In this document: one piece after another, positions 51,995 to 54,085 of the stretch
Layout of the letters: each line of letters begins with the position of its first letter
Position numbering within the stretch: position 1 is the first letter of the stretch
Source: Salinisphaera hydrothermalis C41B8
Lineage (GTDB): Bacteria > Pseudomonadota > Gammaproteobacteria > Nevskiales > Salinisphaeraceae
Assembly: GCF_000732535.1 (NCBI RefSeq)
Contig: NZ_APNK01000010.1
Span: 62,001 to 126,000 of the forward strand
Length of the DNA: 64,000 nucleotides
Direction: 5' to 3'
The notes under the pieces: generated by a model
Databases searched by the model: none
The model's input: the letters and a program-made list of their open reading frames with translations, nothing else
What the model was told of the DNA's origin: nothing
Position numbers and translations under genes: made by a program

Positions 51995-52492
51995 TTACCA
52001 GCGGTGTTTATCCCACTGCTCCGGATTGGCCCAGTGGCGCGAATTGAGCCAGTCCGGCGTGATTTTGTAATCGTGAATAGCGTAGCGATAAAGCCAGTAA
52101 TGGGACTCGATCGGCGTATTGCAGCGCAGACGGCGAAACCCCAGGCCAAGGAAATCGCGCGTTGACCAGCGGTCGTGTTCGCGTGCCTGTGCAATAGAGA
52201 ACGCGGCGATGATCTCCCCGGTGCCGTAGTTTCGAAGTCGGCCGAGGAGTTGTTCGGTCGCGCGCCGCGACAGGATTCTGGGCGCATTGATCACAATCGC
52301 CAGTCTTGCCGGGTGAGAGCGCATCTCTCGTTCGTGGCCGCTGGCGAGCGTGTCTTCGAGCGCAACGTTTTCGACGCCTAGCTCAGTCCAATCAGTCAGG
52401 CAGTCTCGGGGCGCGAATTGCACGCAGCGATGGCCGGCGTGCTGCGCGATCTGCTCGCGCAGGCATTGTTGGATGTCGTCGGGCAGGCTCAT
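51995..52492 (-). CDS. Conserved hypothetical protein, DUF6231-like
   Basis: About 165 residues. The C-terminus SHYWLYRYAIHDYKITPDW followed by LNSRHWANPEQWDKHRW resembles a small family found in Pseudomonas and relatives that I recall as DUF6231. The middle (RLAIVINAPRILSRRATEQLLGRL) looks like a Rossmann-type strand-helix. No signal peptide or membrane helix is present. The ATG at 52492 is preferred: the longer open frame would read through the repeat element upstream. It is convergent with gluQ, 22 bases away. The function is unknown. Confidence 0.7.
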   Translation of the reverse strand: MSLPDDIQQCLREQIAQHAGHRCVQFAPRDCLTDWTELGVENVALEDTLASGHEREMRSHPARLAIVINAPRILSRRATEQLLGRLRNYGTGEIIAAFSIAQAREHDRWSTRDFLGLGFRRLRCNTPIESHYWLYRYAIHDYKITPDWLNSRHWANPEQWDKHRW

Positions 52493-52566: not shown

Positions 52567-52839
52567 CTAGGGCGTGTTGAGGTTTCGTGCGAGCGCCGCG
52601 TTGGCGTCCGCAAATCGTGTCCGGCAAGGCGCGAGTCGCCGCGTCGTTGCGTGCCACGACCCAGACTCGCAACGCCGCCGGGCGGGATTTGCGGCCCAAC
52701 CCTTCGGGACAAGCGCTGTTTTGCGGCAATCCAGCGTTGTCGCTCTCTCGCGTAGGCCCACTACGCCACGTTCGCTACGCCTCGTCTTGCCGCAAAACAG
52801 CGCTTGGCGCGGACTCGAACGAAACCTCAACACGCCCTA
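52567..52839. mobile_element. MITE-like element with 19-base terminal inverted repeats
   Basis: The element (52570-52836, 267 bases) has perfect ends GGGCGTGTTGAGGTTTCGT and its reverse complement, with partial matching continuing inwards. It is flanked by CTA on both sides (52567-52569 and 52837-52839), as expected for a 3-base target duplication. Inside are two further inverted repeats: CCGCAAATC/GATTTGCGG (52608-52616 with 52686-52694, extended by TTGG/CCAA) and a perfect 19-base pair AAGCGCTGTTTTGCGGCAA (52711-52729 with 52787-52805). No transposase is encoded. The CTA flank suggests mobilisation by an IS5-like transposase, which is inference. Confidence 0.72.
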
Positions 52840-52848
52840 ATGGCGGGC

Positions 52849-52880
52849 AAAAAAAAGACCCGGCCTTTGCAGGCCGGGTC
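52849..52880 (-). terminator. Intrinsic terminator of the OmpA-family gene
   Basis: The stem GACCCGGCC/GGCCGGGTC has loop TTTGCA; on the minus strand it is followed by eight T. It lies 41 bases past the stop codon and directly abuts the MITE-like element. Confidence 0.92.
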
Positions 52881-52921: not shown

Positions 52922-54085
52922 TTACATGCCGCTGTTGTCGCCACCCTGGTTGGTGACGTGCAGCTCGACGCGACGGTTCTGAGCGCGGCCAGCCGCGGTC
53001 TTGTTGGTCGCGACCGGGTTGGACTCGCCATGACCCTTCGTGCCGGTGATGCGGCTGGAGCTGATGCCATGGTTGGTCAGGTAGCTCTTAACCGAATCCA
53101 CACGACGCTGCGACAGGCCCAGGTTGTACTTCTGGGTGCCGATGCTGTCGGTGTAGCCGTCGATGCGGAAGTCGACGTCCGGGCTGGCGTTCAGCGCGTC
53201 GACCACGTTGTTCAGGCGGTTCTGCGCCTGCGAGGTCAGCTTGGACGAATCGAATTCGAAGGTGACGCCCTTGAGGACGATCGGGGCCTTCTTCTCGATC
53301 GGGCAGCCGCGAGCATCGACTTCGGTGCCGCGCGGGGTGCCCGGGCACTGATCGTTAGCGTCGATGACGCCGTCGCCGTCGCTATCCTGCGGGCCAGTCG
53401 GGGCCGGAGCGGCCGTCGGCTGCGGTGCCTGCGGGGGCGCGCCCAGCGGGATCTGCAGACCCACGGAAACGACGTTGTCGTTGTAACGCTGGTCTTCGTA
53501 GCCGGCGCCCAGCACGTCAGCCGAGTCGACGGTGGTGTAACGATAACGGTACTCGGCGCGCACTTTCAGACCGTAGTCGTTGAGGGTGTACATGTAACCG
53601 ACACCGGCATCCAGGTACTGGGCGTCGGCATTGTCGCCCACACTGTTGCCGTTGATCGAGCCATAGCCCGGATTCTGCTTGCCCCAGGCGGCGCCCAGGA
53701 TGCCGTAGACCGGCAGCGTGTCACGCGCGGGGAAGAACAGGGCATCCAGACCAAAGCCGTACAGATCGGCGTTGCCAGCGTCATGGCCGTTGAGCTTCTG
53801 GCCCGGGTTGAAGTAGAAGCCGTACAGCTCAAGGTTCAACCAGCTGTTGATCGGCTTACCGATCGCCAGCGTGGTACCGACGCTGTCGTCGTTCTTGACG
53901 TTCAGGCGACCGAAGCTATCCGACGAATCCCCGATCGTGTCATTGTTGAAGAAACCGTAGGACACCATCGGCGCGACGTAGAAGCGCTTGTCCTGCGGGG
54001 TATTATCCTGTGCCATGGCACCAGCCGAGACGGCGAGCCCCAGCGCGCCGGCAACGCATGCGGTAAGCGGTTGCTTGAATTGCAT
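52922..54085 (-). CDS. OmpA-family outer-membrane protein
   Basis: 387 residues. The signal peptide is residues 1-25, with cleavage after AMA. An N-terminal beta-barrel of about 190 residues is rich in aromatic residues (VAPMVSYGFF, YMYTLNDYGL). A proline/alanine hinge and one calcium-type acidic repeat (DSDGDGVIDANDQCPG, with a matching later Cys) lead to the C-terminal OmpA domain (FEFDSSKL, IDGYTDSIGTQKYNLGLSQR), which binds peptidoglycan. Such proteins anchor the outer membrane to the wall. It resembles OprF-type proteins. The ATG has AGGGAG upstream, and the leader is about 90 bases. Confidence 0.94.
   Translation of the reverse strand: MQFKQPLTACVAGALGLAVSAGAMAQDNTPQDKRFYVAPMVSYGFFNNDTIGDSSDSFGRLNVKNDDSVGTTLAIGKPINSWLNLELYGFYFNPGQKLNGHDAGNADLYGFGLDALFFPARDTLPVYGILGAAWGKQNPGYGSINGNSVGDNADAQYLDAGVGYMYTLNDYGLKVRAEYRYRYTTVDSADVLGAGYEDQRYNDNVVSVGLQIPLGAPPQAPQPTAAPAPTGPQDSDGDGVIDANDQCPGTPRGTEVDARGCPIEKKAPIVLKGVTFEFDSSKLTSQAQNRLNNVVDALNASPDVDFRIDGYTDSIGTQKYNLGLSQRRVDSVKSYLTNHGISSSRITGTKGHGESNPVATNKTAAGRAQNRRVELHVTNQGGDNSGM

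Follow-up and report, generated by a model that had tools for sequence, protein, structure and literature searches.

MITEs are usually viewed as the ends of a transposon around a disposable filler. The nearest described relative that we found for the element reported here is MITEPsy1 from Pseudomonas syringae pv. phaseolicola. It is small and non-coding, has 18-nt ends, is listed as "IS5?" and inserts at CTAG or YTAA. The authors of the report on it showed that it transposes, and they describe well conserved copies from a single P. syringae genomospecies only, in addition to similar sequences from other sources (PMC3189936). Correia/NEMIS, ERIC, RUP and CIR are MITE-like as well, have TA termini in most cases, and their transcripts are predicted to form long stem-loops; CIR has two stem-loop arms and a linker (PMC2229807). 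Coxiella burnetii carries QMITE1 and QMITE2, gammaproteobacterial MITEs with strong folds, some of which overlap the 3′ ends of genes (PMC5896051). BIMEs are paired inverted REP sequences with two inverted hairpins per unit. The palindromic units of REP/BIME are 20-40 bp long (PMC3733652).

The window, by which we mean the whole 64-kb stretch of DNA that was analysed, comes from a Salinisphaera genome and contains a single element of the type described here, a non-coding sequence of 268 bp (52570-52837). The left terminal inverted repeat GGGCGTGTTGAGGTTTCGT (52570-52588, plus strand) is matched perfectly over 19 bases by the right one (52819-52837, minus strand). The element is bordered by CTA on the left (52567-52569), where TA is the duplicated core of a CTAG-type target, and by TA on the right (52838-52839), followed by an A. 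When the flanking TA is included, the exact terminal arms extend to 21 bases. The right side, too, closes with CTA (52837-52839) once the final C of the repeat is added to the flank, and the original prediction, which had described 267 bp between CTA and CTA from the sequence alone, is a fair reading of the borders. The subgroups of the IS5 family are defined by target duplications of TA, TNA or YTAR. Because a CTAG-type target is palindromic, duplications of 2, 3 or 4 bases cannot be distinguished by sequence, and the TA, CTA and CTAG parses are equivalent at such a site when compared with the IS5 subgroup duplications.

Perfect 19-base terminal repeats and two internal hairpins had been predicted and both are confirmed, but the proposed arrangement as three nested inverted repeats had to be corrected to one outer repeat which encloses two side-by-side hairpins. 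Exact inverted 18-mers within 400 bp of each other occur at 7 pairs of start positions in the complete 64-kb window, all of them inside the element, and its inverted repeats are thus not due to chance. The prediction that no protein is encoded also held: the overlap of three ORFs (88-131 aa) with the element is merely mechanical, and none of the three has a Pfam match. Being short, non-coding and bounded by terminal inverted repeats, the sequence has the features of a MITE. It was correctly placed between the terminator of an OmpA gene and a small conserved gene. The neighbours are an OmpA-family outer membrane protein gene (52922-54085, minus strand; PF00691), with an intrinsic terminator-like site past the gene and outside the element (52857-52875, minus strand), and a DUF6231 gene (51998-52489, minus strand; PF19742), which starts about 80 bases from the element. 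No sigma-70-like promoter was found near the element.

Hairpin A (52594-52702) has its sense on the plus strand and hairpin B (52706-52814) on the minus strand, separated by a 3-nt spacer (52703-52705); the CCC and GGG beside this spacer can pair into a small central hairpin. The arms of hairpin A (52608-52625 and 52677-52694) are 83% complementary. Those of hairpin B (52710-52729 and 52787-52806) are exact complements over 20 bases, in agreement with the perfect 19-base arms that had been predicted for one of the hairpins. Folded as RNA, the plus strand of the element reaches -165.6 kcal/mol compared to -111.7 +/- 4.7 kcal/mol in shuffled sequences (z = -11.4), and the minus strand has a z-score of -8.7. 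Another stem in hairpin B (TAGCACGC/GCGTGCTA), which was missed by RNAalifold, pairs in many rows of the genus alignment; it pairs poorly in the species to which the window belongs, and we do not include it in the structure of the element described here.

What had not been predicted is that hairpins A and B are copies of a single motif. A covariance model, R1, was built from hairpin A of 20 loci, including hairpin A of the window but no hairpin B. Although trained exclusively on A halves, it also matches hairpin B on the opposite strand. For the window, hairpin A is recovered with an E-value of 1.1e-22, but this sequence is part of the training set, while hairpin B scores 35.6 bits (E 2.2e-06). 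As this is little above the score of the antisense strand of one A half (L071, 31.5 bits), the homology of hairpin B in the window rests mainly on its relatives. At other loci the second half scores up to 84 bits (L076; 83 for L335 and 80 for L334). A facing second half was found in at least 41 of the 56 sources searched with R1, at a distance of 3 nt in 32 cases and of up to 20 nt in the rest. This number is a lower bound, with 42 of the 56 sources entered; those without an evident close second match were left out, as was L290. The interior of the element is thus not a decayed transposase but consists of two homologous motifs of about 108 nt, arranged head to head and mostly 3 nt apart.

The own genome of the element (4.28 Mb, 91 contigs) was searched for further copies. 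Among the 40 candidates scored out of 175, there are 40 near-full-length copies with 89-100% identity, that of the window included. When 3 or fewer mismatches are allowed, the end pattern has 111 forward and 106 reverse matches, compared to 0 forward and 1 reverse match for a reversed-pattern control. We curated 57 copies with lengths of 232-310 bp. TA is present on both sides of 37 of them, YTA..TAR flanks are found in 33 and CTA..TAG flanks in 21, and in 36 copies the 18-base ends are identical to each other. All 14 genomes searched from the genus Salinisphaera match the element, some of them only partially. Pairwise identity among the 57 copies has a maximum of 99.3% and a median of 87%, and we therefore consider recent activity to be limited.

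The copies in the own genome fall into length classes of about 268, 283, 295 and 309 bp, which reflect the choice between alternative modules at three positions of the hairpin arms (e.g. in L048, L052, L124 and L059). Short modules (GGATTTG, TGTTTTG, AAAACA) alternate with longer stretches, each of which has a TTAA-rich motif, and several combinations occur; these look as if copies had been mixed with each other. Close arrangements of elements were also encountered: two element ends facing away from each other at a distance of 2 bp (G000:C7:48544-48581), two full copies about 420 bp apart (G000:C21:48968-49928), and a truncated copy adjoining a full one (G000:C3:228968-229313).

The element is absent from the orthologous ompA locus in all 11 relatives for which this locus was examined. 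In each of the 11, ompA and a tRNA-synthetase-like gene on the other side can be aligned, and there is no element end. For another copy (L048), a stretch of 290 bp in the own genome corresponds to only 19 bp in one relative, and the insertion point, a CTAG that apparently includes a stop codon, lacks the element in two of six relatives. At a further locus (L052), a clean empty-site junction could not be aligned in any of six relatives.

A potential partner was identified in the same genome. It is an IS5-family insertion sequence of 860 bp which shares its 17-18 terminal bases with the element (the first 17 bases of the left repeat in the window are those of this IS), is flanked by CTA..TAG, and has an intact gene for a transposase of 267 aa, in which DUF4096 and DDE_Tnp_1 domains are recognised. 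The kinds of end variants seen in the related IS also occur among the MITE copies of Salinisphaera, where they usually affect both ends together. The best named match of the transposase is from Salinisphaera sp. Q1T1-3 (92%), and further Salinisphaera records are listed, from which the genus of the host can be inferred; among 20 listed matches on plasmids, 17 are annotated as IS5 family transposase, while another is assigned to the ISPa67 family. Related IS (one, on a Raoultella plasmid, is annotated as ISPa67-like and has 61% identity) have GGGYSTGTTG-type ends and CTA/TAG-like flanks in most of the 23 loci that were examined out of 80 named. The ends are convincing at 21 of these loci (e.g. 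GGGTCTGTTGACG, GGGCGTGTTGCCG, GGGTCTGTTGCCG), and no convincing ends were found at the other two. Such IS differ from the element in being autonomous, in their length of about 850-860 bp and in lacking the hairpin core in the copy that was compared. We consider it likely that an IS5-family transposase moves the element in trans, but this is inferred from the matching ends and there are no transposition or binding data. Two of the three IS copies in Salinisphaera (L131, L132) have one in-frame stop codon (TGA) each, so that the supply of transposase in this genome may be dying out. One of these two copies has unequal ends.

A second partner occurs in another genome (G181), where five pairs of TAGGGCGTGTTAACACTA ends are found 811-812 bp apart. 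In the two pairs that were examined, the ends enclose a DDE_Tnp_1 stretch of 151-157 aa, which has 34% identity with the Salinisphaera transposase across 126 residues. The ends of both partner IS are variants of a single kind (GGGCSTGTT). No partner IS was found for the AGAGCCTATCC.. ends in G081 and G228, nor for the TAGTGTCCCTTAACA ends in G020; the single ends encountered in these searches are at contig ends or have no recognisable transposase beside them.

Dispersed copies, target-site duplications together with empty sites, and an autonomous relative with the same ends identify the 268-bp sequence by comparison as a MITE, a transposable element of the non-autonomous type, which has inserted at a CTAG-type site of the Salinisphaera genome. 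The original prediction had expected many copies, empty sites, and an IS5-type transposase with the same ends. The first is confirmed by the 57 curated copies and the 111 and 106 end matches, the last by the IS from the same genome, while empty sites were found for one other copy (in two of six relatives), with no clean junction at a further locus. A single copy at the same place in all genomes, which would have refuted the prediction, is excluded.

It might be argued that the element is an ordinary dead-end deletion derivative of an IS5-family element, with inner palindromes that are chance remnants. This is supported by the identity of the ends to those of the IS over 17-18 bases. However, there is no homology to the IS beyond these terminal bases, the best inner matches having 8-12 bases with E-values of 0.67 or worse, and the core is conserved with covariation in other genera, where it occurs with other ends. 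This explanation is all but excluded, and the prediction of a structured MITE, as opposed to a simple deletion derivative, has held.

The distribution of the core far exceeds the genus. With a threshold of E <= 1e-4 per genome, R1 matches 80 of the 274 genomes in a sample of the class, which represent 66 of 221 genera, and 74 of the 299 genomes in a sample of the phylum, which represent 39 of 154 genera. The samples overlap and both include the own genome. Copy numbers per genome are lower bounds, as 13-14 candidates at most were scored for each, and weak single matches near the threshold may be due to chance. More than two thirds of the matching genomes from the phylum sample (52 of 74) are from outside the class. 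Forty of these 52 belong to one family of another class with small genomes (f195), the share of which in the sample is undetermined; in three of its genomes all 13 scored candidates match, so that this family is a possible hot spot of the core. On plasmids, only partial matches were found, in Halomonas, Azotobacter, Methylophaga and, over 47 bases, Pseudomonas aeruginosa. R1 confirms those from Halomonas and Azotobacter and, weakly, that from Methylophaga. There was no plasmid match for the L285 query, and single queries gave no match in complete E. coli genomes or in phages. One exact 23-base core pattern has two matches in IMG/VR (L345 and L346), both on contig IMGVR_UViG_3300022695_000189, which may be host DNA in a viral bin.

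This core is not tied to one kind of terminus. It is found with GGGCSTGTT ends (e.g. TAGGGCCTGTTAACACTA), with AGAGCCTATCCATGAATAAA and AGAGCCTGTTTCAGTAG ends, with TAGGGAGACGCTGATTGAATC and related forms, and with TAGTGTCCCTTAACAGAAG, AGTACTCCTTCAAGG, AGTGTAGTGTTTCATATT, TACTAAGACAAACGATA and TAGGGGGCGTTCTCAATTAG. Terminal repeats surround most of the cores examined, and about eight kinds could be distinguished, grouped by eye from the loci that were examined. It can be inferred from these ends that the core is carried by several transposases, but in searches that covered three kinds of end partner transposases were found only for two GGGCSTGTT variants.

While the terminal repeats differ by lineage, the pairing within the hairpins is kept by compensatory changes across genomes of many genera. 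In 30 hairpins from 29 genomes or records, which are gap-free over 108 columns, 30 of 36 base pairs change on both sides, and the covariation score is 0.449, compared to 0.127 for shuffled and at most 0.083 for slid alignments. For Salinisphaera alone, such two-sided changes are found in 38 of 91 pairs, with a score of 0.197 versus 0.089. Alignment A1 consists of 34 short-class sequences, namely 7 of the 57 own copies, with that of the window among them, and 27 of 35 copies from relatives. Unpaired bases such as CAAGG and AACGC remain conserved.

Covariation could be mimicked by the recopying of one palindrome arm from its partner, through template switching or gene conversion, as this would keep the arms alike without any selection on the fold. 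For this reason, G-U pairs and A-C mismatches were compared on the sense strand. In 53 distinct hairpins, G-U pairs outnumber A-C mismatches in 35, are fewer in 4 and tied in 14, with an overall ratio of 86:29. Hairpins with more G-U compare to those with more A-C as 21:1 among the better-scoring halves (8 ties of 30) and as 12:3 among the other halves (4 ties of 19). When counted by pair position the excess is small (15 pairs with any G-U versus 10 with any A-C in A5, 12 versus 11 in A6), and 28 pair types have G-U versus 20 with A-C. The model-free genus alignment has a G-U:A-C ratio of 67:10 for hairpin A, while hairpin B is even (26:26) and the outer stem formed by the terminal repeats shows no G-U bias (10:14). 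In the own copies, hairpin B has 68:12 in the expected direction, but this rests on few columns. Changes restricted to a single copy show no G-U excess, being 12:12 for hairpin A and even opposite for hairpin B of the own copies (3:10).

These counts have to be read with care, as the sequences are related and were picked with a covariance model that tolerates G-U. The 53 hairpins are part of 138 R1 matches (103 + 35); sequences with lengths other than 108 nt, five named Salinisphaera loci and duplicates were dropped, and one sequence from a relative within the genus (L074, G006) was retained. A5 and A6 use 49 of the 53; the four left out (L080, L284, L304, L312) are also absent from the split counts. 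A5 includes one B-type half (L299).

Several observations favour recopying. Terminal repeats often deviate from the consensus identically (34 positions at both ends versus 27 at one end), alternative long and short versions of the arms can match each other, and the single-copy changes in the own genome lack a G-U bias. Recopying would, however, give Watson-Crick pairs on both strands alike, whereas outside the genus G-U pairs exceed A-C mismatches on the sense strands. A mutational strand bias cannot explain this excess in both halves, because the halves are on opposite strands. The conservation of the unpaired CAAGG and AACGC also argues against it. We consider recopying without selection on a fold unlikely and infer that selection maintains the fold of each half on the respective sense strand, in the form of RNA or single-stranded DNA; the evidence is suggestive outside the genus and mixed within it.

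A strong fold with a single-strand signature would also be expected from a domesticated host RNA, regulatory or stabilising 3′ ends, which was dispersed through transposition and has since been retained by the host. The position between ompA and the DUF6231 gene, or at stop codons, is in line with this. Against it, the position is not conserved, with the window locus being empty in 11 of 11 relatives, copy numbers are high and variable, and terminal repeats surround most cores. We regard domestication as very unlikely. There was no Rfam match at the gathering score for the window copy or for 11 other loci. Weak Rfam matches (Spot 42, suhB, mir-3926, cspA) were judged to be due to chance or outside the element.

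The two inverted hairpins per unit recall the arrangement in BIMEs, and the element might be a REP/BIME-like or attC-like single-strand element, served by a HUH transposase or an integrase, with merely incidental terminal repeats. BIME units are much shorter than those of our element and are not known to have the terminal repeats of a DDE transposon. The unit length of 20-40 bp (PMC3733652) is not met by units of about 108 nt. Furthermore, the terminal repeats are symmetric and covary, with a TA-centred duplication, and in two genomes IS5-type DDE transposases are located between the same or nearly the same ends. This possibility is strongly disfavoured, although the analysis did not extend to HUH or integrase genes. 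An attC site was dropped as a candidate, the unit being bounded by terminal inverted repeats and having DDE-type partners.

The preferred reading is that of a MITE with IS5-family ends, served by a transposase in trans and carrying a structured double-hairpin cargo. We consider this joint reading likely, while mobilisation, transcription, binding and the function of the hairpins are inferred. An IS5-family transposase would bind the ends in trans and move the element. The core would act as a portable structured cargo, so that in either orientation of landing every strand or transcript has one correctly folded copy. The folded copy may act as a buffer against read-through transcription, or it may be bound by a host factor which helps the element to persist. 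Over evolutionary time, the cargo would have been combined with the ends of whichever TA-targeting transposase was at hand.

A bolder reading is that of an undescribed, phylum-wide superfamily of mobile elements in which the lasting unit is the double-hairpin core, working on each strand as RNA or single-stranded DNA and repeatedly carried by different TA-targeting transposase systems. The core would then parasitise transposons and have its own function, independent of insertion orientation. On present evidence we lean slightly against this reading. Both readings call for caution, and recopying has to be given more weight, because the two partner IS have variants of a single kind of end and the strand-sense reading is opposed by the single-copy changes.

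It seems likely that the element itself, as a MITE of an IS5-family transposase, is of a known kind, and that the structured, end-independent core is the new part. We found no description of the double-hairpin core in the open-licence literature searched by sequence strings and by words, nor in the relevant sections of three reports on bacterial MITEs (PMC2229807, PMC5896051, PMC4853749). MITEPsy1 has in common with the window element that both are small and non-coding, of probable IS5 type and inserted at CTAG sites. It differs in its length of 100 nt, its left end GGAAGGTCTGAAAAAGCC and in that no double 108-nt hairpin core is described in the relevant sections (PMC3189936). Correia/NEMIS, ERIC, RUP and CIR resemble the element in their MITE-like character, TA termini and predicted stem-loops but have only about 100-200 bp, and an inverted motif pair with compensatory changes across genera is not described in the relevant sections (PMC2229807). 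QMITE1 and QMITE2 share the strong fold and the overlap with gene ends, but have other repeats, QMITE2 has duplications of 7-9 bases, and an IS5 partner is not mentioned in the relevant sections (PMC5896051). In our element the conserved part is the filler, which shows compensatory changes across many genera and recurs between unrelated-looking ends. This provides a large natural data set for the question whether a transposable element can be selected for the fold of its transcript or single strand, and the covariance model is ready for use in the annotation of these repeats.

Because the element begins with G, its insertion into C-TA-G restores a TAG, and an amber stop codon therefore stays in place after insertion. 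Among 114 junctions, 88 have TAG and enough flanking sequence for analysis. Frames of at least 200 codons run into the junction TAG in-frame in 11 cases (from 10 elements), compared to 4 and 2 cases for the other two frames. This excess depends on the threshold and fades at shorter frame lengths, with 19/17/5 cases for frames 0/1/2 at 100 codons, 16/16/5 at 120 and 16/10/3 at 150. About ten of the 57 copies appear to have been placed in an amber stop codon which has been kept, and one of these (L048) was checked against relatives. Insertion into CTAG stop codons with retention of the stop suggests how such elements stay harmless. In another genome (L341, G463:C181, at about 1475), a frame with an OmpA domain (PF00691, 1.4e-27) ends at the CTAG stop of an element, a situation that parallels the ompA neighbourhood of the window.
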